Assembly: GCA_025354645.1 (NCBI GenBank)
Contig: JANXML010000018.1
Span: 1 to 40,429 of the forward strand
From: Arcicella sp.
GTDB lineage: Bacteria; Bacteroidota; Bacteroidia; Cytophagales; Spirosomataceae
Direction: 5' to 3'
Length of the DNA: 40,429 nucleotides
Of this stretch, positions 3,627-40,429 are shown piece by piece; positions within the stretch are counted from its first letter, which is position 1, and each line of letters begins with the position of its first letter. Position numbers and translations under genes: made by a program. The notes under the pieces were generated by a model. It was not told the DNA's origin. It made no database searches and worked only from the letters and a program-made list of their open reading frames with translations.

Positions 3627-5273
3627 ATGGCAATTGAAATGAAAGTTCCGCCCGTTGGCGAATCAATAACCGAGGTAACTATCGCTACTTGGAATAAAAA
3701 AGATGGCGATTTGGTAAAAATGGATGAAGTTTTGTGTGAATTAGAATCAGACAAAGCCACTTTTGAACTCCCTGCCGAAGCAGAAGGAATCTTAAAAATC
3801 GTTGCCAAAGAAGGTGATACGCTTCCCATTGGAGCTGTTATTTGTACGATTGAAACAAGTGGGGCTTCGGCGGTCGGCGGTCAGCCGTCGGCATCGGTAG
3901 AAGACATCAAGGTTGTAGAAACCGTGCCATTATCACCCACGCTTGAACCAGCACCAGTTGCCGAAAGCCCAAAGCCGAAAGCTGAAAGCCAACAAGTTAT
4001 TGAAATAAAAGTTCCAACCGTTGGTGAATCAATTACGGAAGTAACAGTTTCATCTTGGAATAAAAAAGAAGGGGATTCTGTGATGATGGACGAAGTTTTG
4101 TGTGAATTAGAATCAGATAAAGCTACTTTTGAATTACCATCAGAAGTTGCTGGAACCTTACATATTGTAGCAGAAGCAGGTACTACTTTGGCAATTGGAG
4201 CGGTCGTGGCTACGATTACCGTTGGAAGCACCCTAACCCCCAGTGGAGGAACTGCGAATCCAACAGACAAGGTAGAAAAAGCGGTTTCACCAGCTCCCCC
4301 ATCGGGGGCGGGGGCGACCGACGCTTCGGGGGCTTCGGACTCTTACGCCGCTGGACATGCTTCACCAGCCGCCGCAAAGGTTTTAGCTGAAAAAGGAATT
4401 GATGCAGGTTCTGTGTCGGGTACAGGCGTGGGTGGACGTATTACAAAAGAAGATGCACAGTCGGCAGTCAGCGGTCAGCAATCGGCGGTCAGCAGTCCTG
4501 TGATTCCAACCCCATCGGTTATTATAACTCCTGCACCAATTGCGGTTTCAACGCCACAATCAACGAGCGGAAATCGTAATCAACGTCGTGAAAAGATGAC
4601 TTCTTTACGCAAAACCGTTGCTCGTCGTTTGGTTCAAGTAAAAAATGAGACAGCAATGTTGACAACTTTCAATGAAGTTGACATGAAGCCAATCATGGAT
4701 TTACGTGGAAAATACAAAGATAAATTTAAAGAAAAACATGGTGTTGGCTTAGGGTTTATGTCATTTTTCACGAAGGCAGTTTGCGTTGCTTTAAAAGAAT
4801 TCCCAGCCGTGAACGGTGCCATTGATGGTGAAGAAATTGTGTTTAACGATTATTGTGATATTTCAATTGCGGTTTCAGCTCCGAAAGGTTTAGTAGTACC
4901 CGTTATCAGAAATGCCGAGAATTTATCATTGGCAGGCATTGAAAGTGAAGTCGTACGTTTAGCGACTTTGGCTAAAAATAATAAATTGACTTTGCAAGAA
5001 ATGTCAGGTGGAACCTTCACGATTACGAATGGTGGAGTTTTTGGTTCAATGCTTTCAACGCCAATTATCAATGCTCCACAAGTGGCAATTTTAGGAATGC
5101 ACAACATCGTTGAACGTGCCGTAGTGGTTGATGGTCAGATAGTTGTGCGTCCAATCATGTACGTAGCGTTGTCTTACGACCATAGAATTGTTGATGGAAA
5201 AGAATCCGTTTCGTTCTTGGTAAGAGTGAAACAGTTATTGGAAGACCCAACTCGTTTATTGTTGGATGTTTAA
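3627..5273 (+). CDS. odhB: 2-oxoglutarate dehydrogenase E2, dihydrolipoyl succinyltransferase, two lipoyl domains
   Basis: Core E2 subunit that transfers the succinyl group from E1 to CoA. Domain order: lipoyl domain 1 (about 1-77, ESDKA with lipoyl-lysine K43), linker, lipoyl domain 2 (about 125-202, lipoyl-lysine K165), linker, peripheral subunit-binding domain (about 245-285, [15 protein letters not shown] and [12 protein letters not shown]), linker, and a catalytic domain ending with SYDHRIVDG, which carries the catalytic His and Asp. At 548 residues it is well above the roughly 400 of single-lipoyl OdhB. The two lipoyl domains are close copies, indicating internal duplication. The linkers are unusual: several stretches are encoded by low-complexity repeat words (listed separately). 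The symbol sucB is equivalent. PdhC is the main alternative, but the neighbouring E1 is an OGDH. Confidence 0.93.
3867..4497 (+). repeat. Stutter-repeat words encoding OdhB linkers
   Basis: Three blocks in the odhB linkers are made of one short word repeated with changes. About 3867-3897 is CGGCGGTC/CAGCCGTCGGC words; about 3961-3991 is GAAAGCC/AAAGCCG words; about 4457-4497 is CAGTCGGCAGTCAGCGGTC-type words. Between them, about 4290-4340 has G- and C-run words (CCCCCATCGGGGGCGGGGGC). They encode Ala/Ser/Gly/Pro-rich linker sequence in frame and differ in composition from the neighbouring lipoyl domains. Confidence 0.65.
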
Positions 5274-13230: not shown

Positions 13231-14445
13231 ATGTTTAGAAATAAAAAAATCATCCTCGGAGTTTCAGGAAGTATTGCAGCGTATAAAATTGCGTTTCTTA
13301 CTCGGCTTTTAATTAAAGAAGAAGCAGAAGTACAAATTATTATGACTCAAGCGGCAAAGGAATTTATTACGCCTTTAACTTTGGCAACGCTCTCTAAAAA
13401 ACCCGTACTTTCGGAATTTGTAAAAGACCAAACGGGAACTTGGAACAATCATGTGGATTTGGGATTGTGGGCGGATATAATTCTGATTGCCCCCGCAACG
13501 GCTCATACGCTCGCAAAATGTGCCAATGGAATCTGTGATGATTTGCTGACTGCCGTGTATCTTTCAGCAAAATGTCCCGTAATGTTTGCTCCTGCCATGG
13601 ATTTGGATATGTACGTTCATCCGAGTACAATTGAAAATCTCAGAAAGTTGCAATCTTTTAGTAATCAGATAGTTAAATCAAATTTTGGAGAATTAGCGAG
13701 TGGATTATTGGGTGAGGGAAGAATGGCTGAACCAGAAGAATTAATGGAAATACTGGCAAAACATTTTTCGGAAATTGAAATGCTGAAAGGCAAAAAAGTA
13801 TTAATCACTGCTGGACCAACCCAAGAACCGATTGACCCAGTACGTTTTATTAGCAATCATTCAACTGGGAAAATGGGTTATGCCATTGCTGATAAATTTG
13901 CGAAAGCGGGTGCAGATGTTACGCTTGTCAGTGGACAAGTAGCTTTAAAATCTCCTGATTCAACGATTAATTTAGTGAAAGTTCGTTCTGCAAAGGAGAT
14001 GTTTGAAGCATCGAAATTGTATTTTGAAGATGCAGATATTATTGTTTTATCCGCTGCGGTGGCAGATTATACGCCTTCGGTGGTTGCCGATAAGAAAATA
14101 AAGAAGAAGGAAGAAACGTTTAATATTGAACTAACCAAAACCGTTGACATTGCCAAAACTCTGGGAGCAACTAAACGTCCAGAACAGTTGATGGTTGGAT
14201 TTGCTTTGGAAACCGATAATGAAGTAGAAAATGCTATTGGGAAGATAAAATCAAAGAATTTGGATATGATTGTCTTAAATTCCTTGCAAAATGCGGGGGC
14301 AGGTTTTGGACACGATACTAACAAAATCAGCATTATTAAAAGAGATGGCACAATGATTGATTTTGATTTAAAATCTAAACAAGATGTGGCAGTTGATATT
14401 GTGGCAGTAATCAGTGAACATTTGGCATTTATCAGTGAGCAGTAA
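13231..14445 (+). CDS. coaBC: Bifunctional phosphopantothenoylcysteine decarboxylase/synthetase
   Basis: Two-step coenzyme A biosynthesis enzyme (also called Dfp), 404 residues. The N-terminal flavoprotein (CoaC) domain has GVSGSIAAYK, the catalytic His region NNHVDLGLWADI, IAPATAHTLAKCANG, and APAMDLDMYVHP. The C-terminal CoaB domain begins near KVLITAGPTQEPIDPVRFIS and shows the NHSTGKMGYAIA nucleotide-binding stretch. A TTG at 13222 is in frame, but the ATG at 13231 gives the conserved start. The last codons and stop lie in the left arm of a long inverted repeat (14431-14479). porD follows, a neighbourhood common in Bacteroidota. Confidence 0.96.
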   Translation: MFRNKKIILGVSGSIAAYKIAFLTRLLIKEEAEVQIIMTQAAKEFITPLTLATLSKKPVLSEFVKDQTGTWNNHVDLGLWADIILIAPATAHTLAKCANGICDDLLTAVYLSAKCPVMFAPAMDLDMYVHPSTIENLRKLQSFSNQIVKSNFGELASGLLGEGRMAEPEELMEILAKHFSEIEMLKGKKVLITAGPTQEPIDPVRFISNHSTGKMGYAIADKFAKAGADVTLVSGQVALKSPDSTINLVKVRSAKEMFEASKLYFEDADIIVLSAAVADYTPSVVADKKIKKKEETFNIELTKTVDIAKTLGATKRPEQLMVGFALETDNEVENAIGKIKSKNLDMIVLNSLQNAGAGFGHDTNKISIIKRDGTMIDFDLKSKQDVAVDIVAVISEHLAFISEQ

Positions 14446-14668
14446 ACAGTTATCAGTTGGGCGGCGAACCGTAAACCGTCATTACAAGTGGCGTTTCTTC
14501 TGTTGGTAACACATTCATTATCAAATTTTACAAAACCATTTTTTTTATGAAACTATTTCATATTATTAAAAACAAGATAGTCATTCCATTCACTGATAAC
14601 TGTTCACTGTTTACCGTTTACGGTTCACGGTTCGCCGCCAGACTGATAACTGTTTACTGTTTACTGAT
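14431..14668. repeat. Long inverted stutter repeat spanning coaBC end and porD start
   Basis: Arm 14431-14479 and the reverse complement of 14620-14668 match at 44 of 49 bases. The left arm contains the last codons and stop of coaBC; the right arm lies inside porD, in its signal-peptide region. The porD start codon (14547) is in the 140-base loop. A partial third copy (words CTGATAACTGTTCACTG) lies at about 14591-14619. Words such as ACTGTTTACTG and GGTTCACGGTTC repeat with small changes. Confidence 0.9.
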
Positions 14669-15536
14669 AAATGGAAACTGTACATTTGCCCAAGAATTGA
14701 ATTGTAAAGTAACTATTTCAACCGACCAATTGCAGGTGAATGAACAACGTGGGGCAACCACCATTTACGCTGAAATTCAGAACGTTATTCAAGAATTTTT
14801 GAATAATCGCCGATGGACAAATGATAATTTTTCTACCGAAGAAAAGATTAATTGTTCGTTATCCATCATTATGACAAAGGCAACTGCGGGGGGTGATTAT
14901 GAGGCAAATGCTAATTTCCAAGTCAGACGACCCATTTATGGGACTGGTTATGAAACGGTTTTATTGAATTACGTTGACAAAAGTTTTAATTTCAAATACG
15001 TTCAGGGAACTCCTTTGACGTATAATGACAATAATTTCAACGATAACCTTACGCAAATGTTAGCTTTTTATGCTTACGTTGCCTTGACATTTGACTATGA
15101 TTCTTTTGGTAAAATGGGTGGAACAAACTACGCTCAAAAAGCATTAAATGTAGTTAATTTAGCCCAGTCGGCGGGCGGTGCTTGGACGGCTTCAAGTGAT
15201 ATTCGGAATCGTTATTGGGTTTCCGAGAATCTTTTAAATCAGCAATTGCAACCACTGAGAGAAGGTTTTTATACTTATCATCGTTTGGTAATGGATAATT
15301 ATGCCACAAATCCTGCGGGCGGACGTAAGCAAATTACTGAATATTTGAACCAGATTAAACAAGTGAGTCAAACTCGTCCTGGGCAAGTTTGGTATCGTTT
15401 ATTTTTTGAAGCAAAGTTCTTGGAATTAATCAGTATTTATGGTGATGCCCCCTTGGACGAACGCAAGAAAATTGTCCCACTCCTATCTTCATTAGACCCA
15501 AATAATTCAGAGGCATATCGGAAATTGGGGAAATAG
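14547..15536 (+). CDS. porD: PorD-like (DUF4835) type IX secretion protein with repeat-derived N-terminus
   Basis: A DUF4835 family member, 329 residues, from the family named PorD in the type IX secretion and gliding machinery of Bacteroidota. The mature part begins near AQELNCKVTIS and includes QNVIQEFLNNRRW, NFQVRRPIYGTGYET and MLAFYAYVALTFDYDSFG, which I recognise as typical. The leader is abnormal: ordinary members have about 20 residues before AQELNC, here there are 48. Residues roughly 16-41 (TDNCSLFTVYGS and following) are encoded by the repeat at 14591-14670. Its end (LITVYCLLINGNCTFAQ) may still act as a signal peptide core. The C-terminal KLGK and stop lie at the start of the next repeat region. 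Confidence 0.85.
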   Translation: MKLFHIIKNKIVIPFTDNCSLFTVYGSRFAARLITVYCLLINGNCTFAQELNCKVTISTDQLQVNEQRGATTIYAEIQNVIQEFLNNRRWTNDNFSTEEKINCSLSIIMTKATAGGDYEANANFQVRRPIYGTGYETVLLNYVDKSFNFKYVQGTPLTYNDNNFNDNLTQMLAFYAYVALTFDYDSFGKMGGTNYAQKALNVVNLAQSAGGAWTASSDIRNRYWVSENLLNQQLQPLREGFYTYHRLVMDNYATNPAGGRKQITEYLNQIKQVSQTRPGQVWYRLFFEAKFLELISIYGDAPLDERKKIVPLLSSLDPNNSEAYRKLGK

Positions 15537-15704
15537 GGATTAGGAAATAGGAAATAGGGATTAGGGATAATCGACTTTTAATCTCATAAGTTCCATAATT
15601 TTAAATCTGTTACTCAATTACCTAATCCCTAATTTGCCCAATTACCCAATCCCTAATCCACCTAATTCACCTAATCCCTAATTTACCCAATCCCTAATCC
15701 CTAA
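15524..15704. repeat. GGGATTAGG/CCTAATCCC stutter repeat between porD and NFACT gene
   Basis: The left part (15524-15570) repeats AATAGGGATTAGG words and the right part (about 15616-15704) repeats CCTAATCCCTAATT words, so the two halves are complementary; for example 15524-15544 pairs with 15621-15642 with few mismatches. The left part includes the final porD codons and stop; the right part ends three bases before the NFACT start. The middle (15571-15615) is ordinary AT-rich sequence. Confidence 0.85.
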
Positions 15705-17948: not shown

Positions 17949-20900
17949 ATGAAAAAAAATTTACTTTTTATTACTGAGAAATTGAGCAAAATGTTTTGGT
18001 TGCTTTCAGCAATTATTTTTATTTCATTTGGGGTGAAGGCTGGGAAGTTGGGTGTTGTTCCCACAGTAACATATACTACGGAAAACGTTGCGGCTGGAAA
18101 TGTGTTGCAGGGGACTTATCCAGGTACCATACTTTACATACTTAAAATTCAAGCAAGTACCGATGCCGCAAATGTCAGTTGGATAAATTTTACACCAACT
18201 GGTAGCTTTACAAGTACAGATATTTCTCAATATAGTCTTTATTGGAATACTACTAATTCATTTACTGGTGCTACTTTAACACAATCAGTAGGTTCAGGAA
18301 CTGGAAGCGGTGTTTCAAAAACTATTAATGCCGGTTCTACTAACATTCCAGCGGGGCAATCAAGATATTTTTTTATAGTTGCCGCAATCAGTTCAACAGC
18401 GGTAGATGGACATACTATAAAAGTGAATGGCTCGGCAAATCCTGCTACTGCGGATATTTATCCAGCACCAATAATTGTAAATAGTCAAACTGATATTGCG
18501 GGTATTCAAACGATTACAGCACCTAAACCAACCGTGAGTACAGAATCATTAGCCGCATCTAATGTTTTACAAGGAACTAACAATACCCAAATTTATATTG
18601 TAAAAATTATCGCAACATCTGGACCATTAGTTTTTAGTTCATTAAAAATAAAAACGTTGGGTACATATACTCCTTCTGACGTAGGTTATTTTCAAATCTA
18701 CAAAGGCTTAACCAATTCATTTGCCTCTGCTACCTATTTGGGTTATCATGGTTTGTCAATAACAGGCAGTGGGCAAATAATTACATTGGGTGGCTACACT
18801 GAAACTATTCCTATGGGCGAGGCAAGGTATTATTTTATAACTGCAAATATAAGTTCAACAGCAACGGACGGTCATACCATAAAAGTTGATGGTTCGGCAA
18901 ATCCAACTGAGGTTGTTGGATATACCACTACACCAATAATTATAAATAACCAAACTGATATTGCGGGAGTTCAAACCATAACAGCACCAAAACCTACGGT
19001 CAGTACAGAAACATCACCTGCATCTAATGTATTGCAAGGTTCAAATAATAATCCTATTTATATTGTAAAAATTGAAGCAACATCTGAACCTCTTACTTTT
19101 AGTTCATTAAAAATAAAAACATTGGGTACATATACTGCATCTGATGTTAGTTATTTTCAAATCTATAAAGGCTCAACTAATTCATTTGCCTCAGCTACTT
19201 ATTTGGGCTATCATGGTTATTCAATAACGGGGAATGGGCAAATAATTACATTAGGAGGTTATTCAGAAACTATTCCTATGGGCGAAGCAAGGTATTACTT
19301 TATTACAGCAAATATTAGTGCAACAGGTATAGATGGGCATACTATAAAAGTTGATGGCTCTGCAAACCCTCTCGAAATAGCTGGAAATACTACTCCTGTT
19401 ATTGTGAATAATCAAACTGATATTGCGGGAGCTAAAACTATTGTAGCACCGAGAGTAACTTATACAACTGAAACTGTACCTGCATTATCAGTACTCCAAG
19501 GTGAGCAAAAAGTTTTGGTTTATACCTTAAAAATAGCCTCAACAACGCATCAAGTCAATCCAAGTGCTATCACTTTTAATATTACAGGGAATTATACAAA
19601 TAATGATGTCCAATATTTTCAAGTATGGACAAATACTACTAACACATTAACGGGTGCAACAAATACAGGAACAAATACTTCAAATTCAACAGGCTCTGGG
19701 GAATCTTTTTATCAAGGGGCTGCCACAACTATTCCAGTTGGAGAATCAAGATATATATTTTTGACAGCATCTCTTAAACCCACGGCTATTGAAGGACATA
19801 CAATTAAAGTAAACGGTTCTTCAAATCCTGTTAATGTCGTTTTCAATTCAACCAATCCTATAGTTACCAATAATCAAACTGATGTGACTGGAATTCAAAC
19901 TATTGTGGCACCGAGAGTAACATATACAACTGAGTCAGTACCTCCACTAAATGTATTACAGAATGACCCAAAAGTATTGATTTACACCTTAAAAATAGCC
20001 TCTACGACTCACCCAGTAGGCGTTGGGCTTATTTCTTATAACATCACTGGCACTTATACGAATAATGATGTTCAATACTTTCAAGTATGGACAAATACTA
20101 CTAACACATTAACGGGTGCAACAAATACAGGTACTAATACTTCAAATTCGACTGGTACGGGAGAAGTATTTATCCAAGGAGCTGCGGCAACAATTCCTTT
20201 TGGGGAGTCAAGGTATTTTTTTTTAACTGCACTTTTGAAACCTACCTCAATTGTTGGTCATACAATTAAAGTAAATGGTTCAGTAAATCCAATAATAGTT
20301 ACCTATAATTATGTAACACCAATCATCACCAACAACCAATCCGACATCGCAGGCAAACAAACCATCGGCACGCCATTATTCACTTACACAACTGAATCTT
20401 CAACTGCCAAAATCATTGCCAAAGGCACTGCAAACCATCCTTTTTATACTTTAAAAGTAGTAGGTGGCTCAGTGGGTGGCACAATCACCAATTTGTCAGT
20501 TCAAACGGCGGGTACTTATAATGGGAGTGATATTGGGAGTTTTTCATTATACAGAAACAGTACGCCAAGCATCACAGGGGCAACTTTGCTGGCAACGGAC
20601 AATACTTCAACGGGTAATGGCGAAACGCTAACTTTCCCAACGGGTTACGTGGAAATTGATGCGGGTACAACCACTTATCTCATCGTGAGGGCAAACGTAA
20701 ATTCGGGTGCTACTTCGGGTAATACTTTTTTTATTAACGGTGGAGCAAATCCTATCACCACCACCAATAGTGGTTTGGTTGCCACCATTACCAACAGTCA
20801 AACCAACGTAGCGGGTATTCAAACCATTGGTGTTCCGCCTACTTTTACTTCCGTCATTTCAAATATTGCGGCAAATACTACGGTAAACTTATGTACGGCA

Positions 20901-23891
20901 GTGGTTAATTATACACCCACCACCGCAGGTTCGCCCACGCCAACACTTTCCTATATTTTCACGGGAGCAACCACGGGAAGTGGCAGTGGTTCGGGAAGTG
21001 GTGCAGTTTTTAATAAGGGCGTAACGAATGTAGTAATCTCAGCAACGAATGCCTGTTTACCCGATGCTACACAAAGTTTTACGGTTACAATTTCTGATGC
21101 ACAATTACCCACCATCACCGCCCCTGCCAATGTAACTGCCACCACCAATACGGCTTGTACGGCAACTGGGGTGGTTTTAGGAACGCCCACAACGGCGGAT
21201 AATTGTTCGGTGGCATCGGTTACTAATAATGCTCCAACGGCATTCCCTTTGGGAGTTACCACAGTAATCTGGACTGTTACGGATGGTTCGGGAAATATTA
21301 AAACGGCTAATCAAACGGTAACGGTTACGGATAATATTTTACCCACCATCACCGCCCCTGCCAATGTAACTGCCACCACCAATACGGCTTGTACGGCAAC
21401 TGGGGTGGTTTTAGGAACGCCCACAACGGCGGATAATTGTTCGGTGGCATCGGTTACTAATAATGCTCCAACAACATTCCCTTTGGGAGTTACCACAGTA
21501 ATTTGGACGGTTACGGATGGTTCGGGAAATATTAAAACCGCTAATCAAACGGTAACAGTTACGGATAATATTTTACCCACCATAACGGCTCCTGCCAACG
21601 TTACTGCTACAACCAATACGGCTTGCACAGCAACGGGTGTAGCTTTGGGTCTTCCAACAACGGCTGATAATTGTTCGGTGGCTTCAACCACCAATAATGC
21701 ACCAACGGCTTTCCCAATCGGTGTTACAACGGTGGTTTGGACGGTAACGGATGGGGCGGGAAATATTAAAACCGCTAATCAAACCGTGACCGTTACGGAT
21801 AATGTTTTACCAACCATCACGCCTCCTGCCAATGTCACAGCAAACACCAATACAGCTTGTACGGCAACTGGGGTGGTTTTGGGAACTCCCACAACGGCGG
21901 ATAATTGCTCCGTTGCATCCACTACAAACAATGCTCCAACGGCTTTTCCATTGGGTGCAACGACGGTGATTTGGACGGTTACGGATGGTGCTGGAAATAC
22001 GAAAACGGCAACGCAAACGGTAACAATTACGGATAATGTTTTACCCACGATTACGGCACCTGCCAATGTGATAGCCACGGGTTGTACCTCTGCAACGGGC
22101 GTAGTTTTGGGTACGCCCACCACAGCGGATAATTGCTCGGTTGCTTCCACTACCAATAATGCACCGACCACTTTTCCAGCGGGTGCAACAACGGTAACTT
22201 GGACGGTTACGGATGGGTCTGGAAATATAAAAACGGCAACACAAACGGTCACGGTGGTTGATAATATTTTACCAACCATAACGGCTCCTGCCAACGTTAC
22301 TGCTACGACAAATACGGCTTGCACGGCAACAGGAGTAGTTTTGGGAACTCCGACTACGGCAGATAATTGTTCGGTGGCATCGGTTACTAATAATGCTCCA
22401 ACGGCTTTTCCATTAGGTGCAACAACGGTGGTTTGGACGGTAACGGATGGGGCGGGAAATATTAAAATCGCTAATCAAACCGTGACCGTTACGGATAATA
22501 TTTTACCAACCATCTCGGCTCCTGCAAACGTAAATGCCACGACAAATACGGCTTGTACGGCAACTGGTGTGGCTTTGGGAACGCCTACAACGGCTGATAA
22601 TTGTTCGGTTGCATCCACTACAAACAACGCCCCAACGGCTTTTCCATTGGGTGCAACAACGGTGATTTGGACGGTTACGGATGGCTCGGGAAATACAAAA
22701 ACCGCAACGCAAACGGTAACAATTACGGATAATGTTTTACCAACCATTACGGCACCTGCCAATGTGAATGCCACAACAAATACGGCTTGTACGACAACAG
22801 GCGTGGTTTTAGGCTCACCCATCACAGCGGATAATTGTTCCGTTGCTTCAACCACCAATAATGCTCCGACCGTTTTTCCCTTGGGAATAACTACGGTAAT
22901 TTGGACGGTTACTGACGGTGCGGGAAACATTAAAACCGCTAATCAGACCGTAACAATTACGGATAATACTTTACCAACCATAACGGCTCCTGCGAATGTG
23001 ACAGCCATCATCAATAGTGGTTGTACGGCAACGGGTGTAGTTTTAGGAACTCCGACAACTTCGGATAATTGCTCGGTAGCTTCAACTACCAATAATGCAC
23101 CAACAGCATTTCCAATTGGTGTTACAACGGTGGTTTGGACGGTAACGGATGGGGCGGGAAATATTAAAACCGCTAATCAAACCGTGACCGTTACGGATAA
23201 TGTTTTACCAACCATTACTGCCCCTACCAATGTCACAGCCACAACAAATACGGGTTGTACGGCTACTGGTGTAGTTTTGGGTACGCCTATAACGGCTGAT
23301 AATTGTTCCGTTGCATCCACTACTAACGACGCTCCGACAGCTTTCCCATTGGGTGCAACAACAGTAATTTGGACGGTTACGGATGGTTCTGGAAATACAA
23401 AAACCGCTACGCAAACGGTCACGATTACGGATAATATTTTACCAACCATAACGGCTCCTGCCAATGTAAATGCCATAACAAACACTTCTTGTACAGCTTC
23501 TGGGGTGGTTTTAGGTTCACCAATCACGGCAGATAATTGTTCAGTAGCTTCAACCACTAATAATGCTCCAACTACTTTTCCAATTGGTTCAACAACAGTA
23601 ATTTGGACGGTTACGGATGGGGCTGGAAATACAAAAACTGCCAATCAAACGGTTACGGTTACTTCGAGTGGAGGCAGTAGTAGTATTGTTATTTCAACTC
23701 AATCGGGTGATTGGAACACGCCATCAACTTGGCAATGTGGGGATTTACCAACGGCTACGAAAGTGGTTCAAGTTCAATCAGGACACATTGTTAATATTAG
23801 TAGCGATGTTCATGCGAAAGATGTCAAATTCTTAGGCACTGGAAAACTCAACTATACGGGAACGGCAGGAAAGTTATTTTTAAATCAATAA
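17949..23891 (+). CDS. Giant secreted repeat protein with six 155-residue modules and eleven HYR repeats
   Basis: A 1980-residue exported protein. A signal peptide (MFWLLSAIIFISFGVKA at the end of the leader) is followed by six related modules starting near residues 37, 193, 348, 502, 656 and 810. A divergent HYR/PKD-like module comes next (about 964-1052), then eleven HYR-type immunoglobulin-like repeats from residue 1053, each starting LPTITAPANV and ending TVTVTDN. The last 65 or so residues (SGDWNTPSTWQCGDLPTATK, then HIVNISSDVHAKDVKFLG) resemble a short beta-helix start seen after HYR arrays. HYR proteins are usually adhesins or extracellular matrix-like filaments. No type IX C-terminal sorting domain or LPXTG-like anchor is visible; the protein ends abruptly at KLFLNQ. 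High Thr/Asn and few charged residues fit an extended surface stalk. Confidence 0.9.
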   Translation: MKKNLLFITEKLSKMFWLLSAIIFISFGVKAGKLGVVPTVTYTTENVAAGNVLQGTYPGTILYILKIQASTDAANVSWINFTPTGSFTSTDISQYSLYWNTTNSFTGATLTQSVGSGTGSGVSKTINAGSTNIPAGQSRYFFIVAAISSTAVDGHTIKVNGSANPATADIYPAPIIVNSQTDIAGIQTITAPKPTVSTESLAASNVLQGTNNTQIYIVKIIATSGPLVFSSLKIKTLGTYTPSDVGYFQIYKGLTNSFASATYLGYHGLSITGSGQIITLGGYTETIPMGEARYYFITANISSTATDGHTIKVDGSANPTEVVGYTTTPIIINNQTDIAGVQTITAPKPTVSTETSPASNVLQGSNNNPIYIVKIEATSEPLTFSSLKIKTLGTYTASDVSYFQIYKGSTNSFASATYLGYHGYSITGNGQIITLGGYSETIPMGEARYYFITANISATGIDGHTIKVDGSANPLEIAGNTTPVIVNNQTDIAGAKTIVAPRVTYTTETVPALSVLQGEQKVLVYTLKIASTTHQVNPSAITFNITGNYTNNDVQYFQVWTNTTNTLTGATNTGTNTSNSTGSGESFYQGAATTIPVGESRYIFLTASLKPTAIEGHTIKVNGSSNPVNVVFNSTNPIVTNNQTDVTGIQTIVAPRVTYTTESVPPLNVLQNDPKVLIYTLKIASTTHPVGVGLISYNITGTYTNNDVQYFQVWTNTTNTLTGATNTGTNTSNSTGTGEVFIQGAAATIPFGESRYFFLTALLKPTSIVGHTIKVNGSVNPIIVTYNYVTPIITNNQSDIAGKQTIGTPLFTYTTESSTAKIIAKGTANHPFYTLKVVGGSVGGTITNLSVQTAGTYNGSDIGSFSLYRNSTPSITGATLLATDNTSTGNGETLTFPTGYVEIDAGTTTYLIVRANVNSGATSGNTFFINGGANPITTTNSGLVATITNSQTNVAGIQTIGVPPTFTSVISNIAANTTVNLCTAVVNYTPTTAGSPTPTLSYIFTGATTGSGSGSGSGAVFNKGVTNVVISATNACLPDATQSFTVTISDAQLPTITAPANVTATTNTACTATGVVLGTPTTADNCSVASVTNNAPTAFPLGVTTVIWTVTDGSGNIKTANQTVTVTDNILPTITAPANVTATTNTACTATGVVLGTPTTADNCSVASVTNNAPTTFPLGVTTVIWTVTDGSGNIKTANQTVTVTDNILPTITAPANVTATTNTACTATGVALGLPTTADNCSVASTTNNAPTAFPIGVTTVVWTVTDGAGNIKTANQTVTVTDNVLPTITPPANVTANTNTACTATGVVLGTPTTADNCSVASTTNNAPTAFPLGATTVIWTVTDGAGNTKTATQTVTITDNVLPTITAPANVIATGCTSATGVVLGTPTTADNCSVASTTNNAPTTFPAGATTVTWTVTDGSGNIKTATQTVTVVDNILPTITAPANVTATTNTACTATGVVLGTPTTADNCSVASVTNNAPTAFPLGATTVVWTVTDGAGNIKIANQTVTVTDNILPTISAPANVNATTNTACTATGVALGTPTTADNCSVASTTNNAPTAFPLGATTVIWTVTDGSGNTKTATQTVTITDNVLPTITAPANVNATTNTACTTTGVVLGSPITADNCSVASTTNNAPTVFPLGITTVIWTVTDGAGNIKTANQTVTITDNTLPTITAPANVTAIINSGCTATGVVLGTPTTSDNCSVASTTNNAPTAFPIGVTTVVWTVTDGAGNIKTANQTVTVTDNVLPTITAPTNVTATTNTGCTATGVVLGTPITADNCSVASTTNDAPTAFPLGATTVIWTVTDGSGNTKTATQTVTITDNILPTITAPANVNAITNTSCTASGVVLGSPITADNCSVASTTNNAPTTFPIGSTTVIWTVTDGAGNTKTANQTVTVTSSGGSSSIVISTQSGDWNTPSTWQCGDLPTATKVVQVQSGHIVNISSDVHAKDVKFLGTGKLNYTGTAGKLFLNQ
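18057..20838 (+). repeat. Six tandem ~155-residue modules
   Basis: The modules start at about 18057, 18525, 18990, 19452, 19914 and 20376, so spacing is nearly constant (154-156 codons). Each begins P-x-(V/F)-x-(S/Y)-T-E, has a middle YFQ(I/V) or SLY strand and ends NNQTDIAGxQTI. Modules 2 and 3 are a close pair, as are 4 and 5; 19617-19669 and 20079-20131 are identical over 53 bases. Confidence 0.9.
21105..23666 (+). repeat. Eleven tandem HYR repeats of 234 bp
   Basis: Units start at 21105, 21339, 21573, 21807, 22041, 22269, 22503, 22737, 22971, 23205 and 23439. All are 78 codons except the fifth (76). Units 1 and 2 differ at only about six of 234 bases, indicating very recent duplication. 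Units 3/6/9, 4/7/10 and, more weakly, 5/8/11 share distinctive residues, suggesting a three-unit (about 702-bp) higher-order period. Each unit has two conserved Cys (TACTATG and ADNCSVAS) that could form a disulfide. Confidence 0.95.
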
Positions 23892-39215: not shown

Positions 39216-40429
39216 ATTTTCAAATTCAACACATATTCAATTATTTTATCCGTCCCTCCTAAATTATCTTGAACGTATTTTTTAATTATATCAGATTTCT
39301 GTTTTCTTAAATCCAAATCATCATATAATTTCTCAAATTCTGAGGCAAATTCATTGATATCATTAATGGCTTTTGCCACCGTAATTCGTTCTAAATCAAC
39401 CGCTTCCTGAAATTTTATGTAGTTTTTATTACCAAAAAATATCGGTAATCCAAACGTGGCGGCTTCCAAAATATTGTGTAATCCTTTGCCATAGCTCCCT
39501 CCTATCCACGCAAAATCAGCGTATTGATAAAGATCAGAAAGCATCCCGATATTATCAATTATCAATGTTTTGTACAGAAAAGGGTTTTCGTAATCAAATT
39601 CCACTTCTCCGATATCGGAATGTTTGAGGGTGTTTCCATTCAAGACTTTTATCCAACTTTCAATTTCTTGTTGATTTATCTCATGCGGAGCAATAATTAC
39701 CTTTAGTTCTCCCGCAAAATTATTCAAAAATGGAACAATTACCTCGAAATCTTCATGCCAACATGAACCAATAATCAATAATGGTTTTCCAGCTCGAAAA
39801 GAATCTACTGCAACGTGCTTACGGGATTTTTTTACAATCTCAGCAACTCTATCAAAACGAGTATCTCCGCCGATAGTAACATGCTGAATACCAATATTTT
39901 GCAACAAATCCATGGATGAATTATTCTGCACAAAAATTTGGTTAAAGTACGTTAATATATTTCGATGAAATCCGCCATACCATTTAAAAAATACTTGGTC
40001 GGGTCGGAAAATAGCGGAGAAGGAAATGACTGGAATATGTTTCTCGTGAAGGATTCTGAGGTAATTGTACCAAAATTCGTATTTCACAAAGAAAGCAATG
40101 GAAGGATTTATTTTTTCAATAAAATCTCGTGCTTTTAAGGGCGTATCAATGGGTAAATAACAAATAAAATCAGCCCCAGCATAGTTTTTACGCACTTCAT
40201 AACCCGAAGGAGAAAAAAATGTCAATACGATTTTATAATCAGGAAAGGTCTCTTTAAACTTTTCCATAACGGGTCGTCCTTGTTCAAACTCACCGAGGGA
40301 AGCACAGTGGAACCAAGCGGTTTTCGTTGCTCGATGTTCGTTTTTCGATGTTTGTTGCTCGAACATCGAAAAACGGACATCGAGCATCGAAGAACGTCCA
40401 TCAATCCATAATTTTGCCTTTTTATTGAA
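39212..40429 (-). CDS. waaA: 3-deoxy-D-manno-octulosonate transferase WaaA (KdtA), 5' end beyond the window
   Basis: Transfers Kdo from CMP-Kdo to the lipid A precursor during LPS assembly. The reading frame is open to the window edge, so the start is missing. The edge residues (FNKKAKLWIDGR) match the conserved start region of this family, and AWFHCASLGEFEQGRPVMEK resumes the family further on. Other typical stretches are FFSPSGYEVRKNYAGAD, FFVKYEFWYNYLRIL, IGGSYGKGLHNILEAATFGL and PIFFGNKNYIKFQEA. Between WIDGR and AWFHC lie about 26 residues encoded by a palindromic repeat (40329-40385) where the family has a helical linker. An ATG at 40387 opens an apparent start inside that repeat; it is not the real start. 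Coupled to rsgA by a four-base overlap. Confidence 0.95.
   Translation of the reverse strand, partial: FNKKAKLWIDGRSSMLDVRFSMFEQQTSKNEHRATKTAWFHCASLGEFEQGRPVMEKFKETFPDYKIVLTFFSPSGYEVRKNYAGADFICYLPIDTPLKARDFIEKINPSIAFFVKYEFWYNYLRILHEKHIPVISFSAIFRPDQVFFKWYGGFHRNILTYFNQIFVQNNSSMDLLQNIGIQHVTIGGDTRFDRVAEIVKKSRKHVAVDSFRAGKPLLIIGSCWHEDFEVIVPFLNNFAGELKVIIAPHEINQQEIESWIKVLNGNTLKHSDIGEVEFDYENPFLYKTLIIDNIGMLSDLYQYADFAWIGGSYGKGLHNILEAATFGLPIFFGNKNYIKFQEAVDLERITVAKAINDINEFASEFEKLYDDLDLRKQKSDIIKKYVQDNLGGTDKIIEYVLNLKI
40329..40385. repeat. Palindromic stutter repeat in frame inside waaA
   Basis: 40329-40352 and the reverse complement of 40362-40385 match at 23 of 24 bases, with a 9-base loop. Words of the type TCGATGTTCG and AACATCGAAAAACG repeat with small changes through about 40322-40400. 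The reading frame of waaA continues through without stop or frameshift. Confidence 0.92.

Follow-up and report, generated by a model that had tools for sequence, protein, structure and literature searches.

Palindromic repeats that lie in frame in protein-coding genes are most familiar from Rickettsia and Wolbachia. The Rickettsia palindromic elements (RPEs) are, in the available part of the source, palindromic repeats of ∼150 bp that lie in frame in unrelated genes, each with a conserved peptide (PMC10969869). Wolbachia-like palindromic elements are placed in addA, addB, and priA in the text accessible to us (PMC4224334). Arrays of the heptamer TAACTGA are reported from Beggiatoaceae, Cyanobacteria, and five Bacteroidetes in the available portion of a further study (MacGregor 2015, PMC4679880). 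The same portion gives 169 direct sets against "one indirect repeat" in the main genome, mostly upstream of starts, together with one set of two repeats in a putative purC gene and other heptamers alongside. For Nematomorpha mitochondria, the accessible text describes coding palindromes in which both arms encode conserved residues and names template switching as one possible mechanism (PMC6649704). A search of titles and abstract openings in the open-licence literature found no earlier description of in-frame heptad hairpins in Bacteroidota, and no paper was found for five peptide strings in the open-licence literature.

The locus analyzed here lies in a 40,429-nucleotide stretch of DNA (the window), which is an entire contig (C53) of a 5.36-Mb, 392-contig genome of the genus Arcicella and ends within waaA. 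The preliminary description reported a near-perfect inverted repeat with a 9-base loop inside waaA, with the frame open on both sides, and this was confirmed. The two 35-nt arms are 89% complementary and 9 nt apart (Table 1), and the core arms (40323–40352 and 40362–40391) pair at 28 of 30 positions. With a score of 24 (+1/−2 scoring), the palindrome is the top inverted repeat of the window for loops up to 30; 20 second-order shuffles of the window yielded scores of 14 at most, and the palindrome is beyond chance. The predicted RNA fold has an energy of −40.7 kcal/mol for the coding strand and −51.3 kcal/mol for the other strand. The minus-strand frame is open across the palindrome and reads FNKKAKLWIDGR-SSMLDVRFSMFEQQTSKNEHRATKT-AWFHCASLGEFEQGRP. 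On the coding strand the palindrome can be written as the heptads CGTTCTT CGATGCT CGATGTC CGTTTTT CGATGTT CGAGCAA CAAACAT CGAAAAA CGAACAT CGAGCAA CGAAAAC. The AlphaFold model of the window part of WaaA has a mean pLDDT of 89.9, but residues 1–30 are at ∼60, and so the linker is poorly determined in the model. No Rfam family matched the window at the gathering score, and an exact 20-base search of viral_contigs gave no match.

A second contig, C367, is identical to window positions 40290–40429 (140 bp, palindrome included) and adds an upstream part of waaA (...LYNLSIYCYQIIIWLVSP). Past this overlap the two contigs diverge (VMEKFKETFPDYK against VIEKFKETFSDYK), probably as strain variants in a metagenome assembly. 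Because both contigs have the identical 140 bp, C367 is no independent proof of the palindrome. The heptad inverted repeat at 14415–14684 reaches from the end of the coaBC-like gene into the N-terminal region of the DUF4835 gene, where it seems to encode part of a signal peptide.

Table 1. Positions of repeat features and associated genes in the window
Feature	Position	Strand	Remarks
Heptad array, in frame, linker 1 of SucB/OdhB-like E2 protein (ORF 3627–5273)	3867–3892	+	lag-7 score 11.5
Second in-frame heptad array, linker 1 of SucB/OdhB-like E2 protein	3960–3989	+	lag-7 score 15.5
Heptad array, in frame, linker before catalytic domain of SucB/OdhB-like E2 protein	4458–4497	+	lag-7 score 10.5
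Heptad hairpin, arms 14415–14479 and 14620–14684 (65 nt, 86% complementary)	14415–14684	.	spans coaBC-like gene end and DUF4835 gene start region
Intergenic heptad-like fold-back, TAGGGATT... facing ...CCTAATCC	15534–15698	.	read by eye
waaA (KDO transferase; KdtA), 5' end cut by contig end	39212–40429	-	open frame of 405 aa; Pfam PF04413, E = 7.8e-44; PDB 2xci, E = 1.9e-17
WaaA linker SSMLDVRFSMFEQQTSKNEHRATKT, between KLWIDGR and AWFHCASLGEFEQGRP	40319–40393	-	own lag-7 tandem score only 7.5
Arm 1 of heptad hairpin	40318–40352	.	inverted-repeat detection
9-base loop of heptad hairpin	40353–40361	.	
Arm 2 of heptad hairpin	40362–40396	.	inverted-repeat detection

WaaA was present in 57 of 59 genomes, among them the source genome and all seven congeners (G001–G007; G001 is A. 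rosea and G007 is A. aurantiaca DSM 22214). In the linker that separates KLWIxGR from AWFHCASLGEFEQ, five of the seven congeners scored clearly for 7-base tandem repeats. Three have units of the CGATGTT family (G002, G004, and G007, with lag-7 scores of 17, 16.5, and 15), one has units of the CAGAACT family (G005, 15.5), and one is weak (G003, 9.5). The linker of G004 is 69 bp longer than the otherwise similar linker of G007. Low scores were obtained for the source linker (7.5), G006 (6), G001 (2), and four other genera (1–6, with 6 in G035); control lags in the seven-lag panel reached at most 5.5. The source copy, with its score of 7.5, was assigned to the heptad family by its palindrome and by similarity, not by that score. 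A heptad repeat read by eye in the G006 linker was withdrawn, its score of 6.0 being like that of G035. In a tree of four proteins the source genome groups with G003, G005, and G006 (support 93; the other two key nodes have 90 and 80), and therefore the heptad type in WaaA does not simply track phylogeny. The single-gene trees are weakly supported.

In another collection of 80 WaaA loci, a lag-7 score of at least 10 was reached in three (G004, G007, and Runella defluvii), and none of the 80 reached 10 at lags 4, 5, 8, 10, 11, or 13. The R. defluvii linker has approximately ten GGCAAAG-like heptads (score 35.5) and is the only such non-Arcicella locus among the 80; the R. limosa linker has no lag-7 stretch. 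The inserted peptide had been thought to be without counterpart in the family, a claim that fails within the genus, as G002, G004, and G007 have a diverged linker of the same family. The possibility that relatives share the linker, which had been named as counting against an insertion, is borne out in part, by the diverged linkers of these three congeners; outside Arcicella, only R. defluvii among the 80 loci reaches a lag-7 score of at least 10, and with another heptad.

The repeat is dispersed in the source genome. A 92-base query gave at least 125 matches (E up to 10, strands of one place counted separately, 40 of 107 candidates scored), and a one-arm pattern of the CGATGTT family gave 219 matches against none for its backwards control. 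The case raised beforehand, that no related palindromes would be found elsewhere in the genome, is excluded by these counts. Relatives of the CGATGTT family occur at dozens of loci, mostly in spacers. Sixty-one repeat loci were used, some of them overlapping, and 40 of 43 further listed regions were taken in (C355, C358, and C382 were left out). An element of at least 4 units was yielded by 49 loci, giving 63 element rows, 60 of them distinct. The layouts were F then R (21 rows), R then F (3), F only (16), R only (22), and other (1), a count that is biased because the loci were chosen for their likeness to a palindrome.

In all three genomes tested (source, G005, and R. defluvii), the heptad of the WaaA linker belongs to a family dispersed in that genome. 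In relatives of the source genome the one-arm CGATGTT pattern gave 71 matches in G002, 34 in G004 (control 1), 7 in G007, 3 each in G003, G005, and G006, and none in G001, G008, or G012. The CAGAACT unit gave 45 matches in G005 when up to 3 mismatches were allowed and 16 when the limit was 2; under this stricter limit the other nine genomes gave a single match, in the source genome. The 3-mismatch matches in G004, G007, and G008 mostly represent different heptads, namely CATAACT or CACAACT. The backwards control gave 4 matches in G001, 1 in G003, 6 in G007, and 1 in G008. GGCAAAG gave 99 matches in R. defluvii (control 0) and 4 in R. limosa (control 7). Among 395 genomes of the phylum, with no congener included, three CGATGTT units at up to 2 mismatches gave 33 matches in the source genome and 1–5 in each of 8 other genomes. 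These few matches are background, as the backwards control matched 7 genomes, and the CGATGTT family is rare across the phylum. Several of the GGCAAAG matches in R. defluvii (G449; locus L198) are regularly spaced within contigs, for example at C5:414980–415276. One ∼280-bp CACAACT array is found in G008 (C6:2746880–2747159), although sampled G008 spacers have no lag-7 signal.

Sampled spacers showed an excess of identity at lag 7 of 2.7 in the source genome, 2.9 in G005, 3.9 in G007, and 1.6 in G001, over backgrounds of 0.22–0.33. The corresponding lag-8 values were 1.6, 2.3, 2.2, and 1.3. The lag-7 signal was absent from three of four sampled other genera (G012, 0.4; G008, 0.6; G011, 0.9) and present in the fourth, G033, a 56% G+C genome of the same taxonomic family, whose values over a background of 1.07 were 2.5 (lag 7) and 3.1 (lag 8). 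Tandem segments with a score of at least 14 numbered, at lags 7 and 8 respectively, 20 and 0 in the source genome, 2 and 8 in G001, 11 and 4 in G005, 35 and 7 in G007, 10 and 7 in G033, 0 and 2 in G008, and 0 and 0 in both G012 and G011. The period is accordingly not strictly 7: lag 8 is raised in the source genome, G005, and G007 and leads the tandem segments in G001. Octamer segments exceed heptamers in the A. rosea samples (L312–L331) at that score, and G033 (L342–L351) has heptad fold-backs of its own plus an equally strong lag 8.

Neighboring heptad arrays were inverted relative to each other in 10 of 11 cases in the source genome, 6 of 9 in G005, 9 of 15 in G007, all 11 in G033, and neither of 2 in G001. 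The 5' array was the more GT-rich in 31 of 36 inverted heptad pairs, with only 6 of 10 in the source genome. This GT-first polarity was seen only in inverted heptad pairs; across all spacer hairpins there was no consistent bias.

Fourteen of the 60 distinct elements of the source genome lie within mechanical ORFs. Eight were accepted as in-frame copies and are spread over seven genes. These encode WaaA, RecF, MetH, an acyl-CoA dehydrogenase, a PD-(D/E)XK-family protein, a molybdopterin oxidoreductase, and a DUF11 protein with two copies; RecF and MetH were so named from our interpretation of the Pfam matches. The other six (L067, L068, L070, L088 twice, and L091) were set aside because they lie ahead of the probable start or are ambiguous; the L068 gene resembles secA and the L070 gene resembles purC. 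In a 395-kb sample of the source genome, from contigs with known copies but away from the listed copies, 7 of 39 lag-7 segments lay well inside ORFs, other units among them. At other lags (multiples of three excluded), the same sample had one in-ORF segment each at lags 13 and 14 and none at lags 4, 5, 8, 10, 11, 16, 17, 19, and 20. Segments well inside ORFs at lag 7 were 0 of 6 in G001, 2 of 18 in G005, 0 of 41 in G007 (400 kb sampled), and 1 of 15 in G033. Frequent in-gene copies have thus been demonstrated in the source genome alone, and not in G007.

The loops concerned were scored in relatives. The acyl-CoA dehydrogenase loop had lag-7 scores of 22.5 in the source genome, 13 in G005, 10.5 in G004, 9.5 in G003, 5.5 in G007, 5 in G002, and 3 in G006; a motif search did not find it in the G005 paralogue, G012, G001, or G008. 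For the RecF loop the scores were 20.5 in G002, 11.5 in the source genome, 7 in G004, 5.5 in G005, G007, and G001, 3 in G003 and G006, and 2 in G008, and a motif search did not find the loop in G012. The MetH loop scored 14.5 in the source genome and at most 5 in the other nine. Heptads read by eye were withdrawn for the acyl-CoA dehydrogenase of G007 and G002 (only 5.5 and 5), for RecF of G005 and G007 (5.5 each, the same as G001), and for the MetH loop of the congeners. Within the window, the two linkers of the SucB-like protein that carry arrays scored 15.5 and 10.5 in the source genome, 18 and 14.5 in G005, and 12 and 10.5 in G002, with at most 5 in the seven other genomes where they were found; no control lag exceeded 7.5, a value that came from G002. 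Linker 2 of this protein gave no lag-7 signal in any of the six genomes where it was found. The motif search missed linker 2 in G003, G001, G012, and G008 and linker 3 in G001.

None of the six frames of a CGATGTT tandem array has a stop; the translation is RCSMFDV in one direction and NIEHRTS in the opposite one. Of the 16,384 heptads, 8,264 form tandem arrays that lack stops on both strands, and 5,992 form arrays that lack them on a single strand. Stop-free heptads are therefore common, and an open frame alone is no sign of selection. Each of the 36 distinct non-ORF elements of at least 42 bp was open in some frame, whereas shuffles predict 29.0.

These data establish that the repeat exists with the period and layout described, that it is dispersed and has in-frame copies in several genes, and that related species have different families at the same loops. 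We favor, on balance, the reading that the waaA palindrome is one copy of lineage-specific heptad hairpins that multiply in the genome and fill unconstrained DNA. Such hairpins would be short runs of 7-base units, frequently opposed by an inverted run, that occupy spacers among other places. Copies in surface linkers of proteins would survive where the coding strand has no stop and the gene gains or loses a multiple of three bases overall. Since 7 and 3 have no common factor, a heptad array without stops on one strand can be read through in each frame of that strand, always as the same 7-residue peptide, which makes survival in genes easy. Template switching or inter-locus copying in replication or recombination, and not a dedicated transposase, may drive the spread; the linker peptides are presumably translated and nearly neutral. 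The evidence supports a repeat class whose hallmarks are its period and layout and not any particular unit. Repeats of this class multiply inside a genome, are unlike in related species, and have in-frame copies in protein linkers. In our view they are neutral or selfish DNA, of which selection in loops retains the copies that are in frame and free of stops.

In our judgment it is unlikely that the repeat is a genuine mobile element like those of Rickettsia or Wolbachia, a palindrome moved whole by a transposase in trans. Such an element would account for the in-frame palindromic copies in unrelated genes, for the many copies and their inverted layout, and for the source MetH loop, which is 18–20 residues longer than in the seven congeners, none of which has heptads there. 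However, element length is not fixed (28–136 bp by the detector), no conserved ends were seen, the unit at the same WaaA site is different in G005, and none of six loci of the Y1 transposase family had more than 2 clustered heptads in the flanks examined. The resemblance to RPEs that the preliminary description proposed holds in part. The Arcicella repeats are likewise palindromic and dispersed, with related palindromes elsewhere and in-frame copies in core and other unrelated genes, as in the RPE and Wolbachia elements. In contrast, they are built of heptads, form no single conserved element of ∼150 bp with a conserved peptide per family, differ in unit between congeners at one site (CAGAACT in G005), and belong to another phylum. 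The Arcicella repeat behaves like RPEs but does not look like a member of that family, its period being fixed while its unit changes. The dispersed extragenic palindromes also recall REP palindromes with their RAYT transposases; this association was rejected, as the largest heptad cluster flanking the six PF01797 matches in the source genome had 2 units.

A slightly less probable explanation than the mobile element is that functional hairpins (terminators, mRNA 3' stabilizers, or protein-binding arrays) are selected in spacers and the in-gene copies are by-products. The stop-codon end of a neighboring mechanical ORF lies within 10 bp in 21 of the 63 element rows, the predicted fold is stable, and heptamer arrays elsewhere have been proposed, in the accessible parts of two reports, as regulatory sites (PMC4679880, PMC4692102). 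Against selected function stand the different units of related species, the occurrence of elements in all orientations between genes as well as inside ORFs, and the missing signal in three of the four sampled other genera.

Plain slippage microsatellites, of local and independent origin at each site, are very improbable. Heptameric repeats are reported as over-represented in many bacteria (PMC4692102, available part), some G007 arrays are perfect tandems, and lag 8 occurs too; yet one unit recurs at many loci of a genome and is rare in relatives, and neighboring arrays are mostly inverted, which slippage alone does not produce. An assembly artifact or chance can practically be dismissed: the window stops 30 bases past the repeat, at a contig branch point, but separately assembled congeners have repeats at the same site and the palindrome lies far outside the shuffle scores.

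The heptad hairpins that we prefer as the explanation share with the TAACTGA system, in the part of that report available, the dispersal of 7-base arrays in spacers with other heptamers alongside, and the TAACTGA unit itself (canonical AACTGAT) is the commonest in the G007 sample (7 of 35 arrays). Unlike the TAACTGA arrays, within the same limits of the source, they mainly form inverted pairs, comprise many units, and lie in frame in several enzymes. Neighboring arrays are mostly inverted in the source genome, G005, G007, and G033 and not in the direct orientation of the STRR/TAACTGA type. With their inverted layout and their in-frame copies in a number of enzymes, the Arcicella repeats extend what is known of heptamer repeats. 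Another system also has short tandem repeats within a functional gene, but there the gene is an RNA gene and the phylum is another one. The repeats of that system are heptamers. The Nematomorpha palindromes, as far as the available text goes, are similar as inverted repeats inside genes, whereas the Arcicella ones lie in unconserved linkers.

A Bacteroidota genus thus does something like the in-frame palindromes of Rickettsia and Wolbachia, with seven-base units. In these genomes repeats seem to overwrite DNA that is free of constraint, including that of protein linkers. A bolder idea, to which we would give only a small chance, is that some process writes DNA in steps of about seven (sometimes eight) bases whatever the unit sequence, makes fold-back arrays, and keeps rewriting spacers and core-enzyme linkers; a repeat generator would then be the author of protein loops, with selection acting only as a filter. 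The relatives with different units at the same loops, partly named species (A. aurantiaca, A. rosea, and R. defluvii), form a series for site-by-site comparison of gain, replacement, and decay of repeat-derived protein segments, and they pose the question of why seven bases. Elsewhere in the window, a single long ORF (17949–23891), encoding a large repeat-domain protein, contains ∼12 copies of a 234-bp direct repeat (20928–23795) and five earlier copies ∼462 bp apart (18345–20291).
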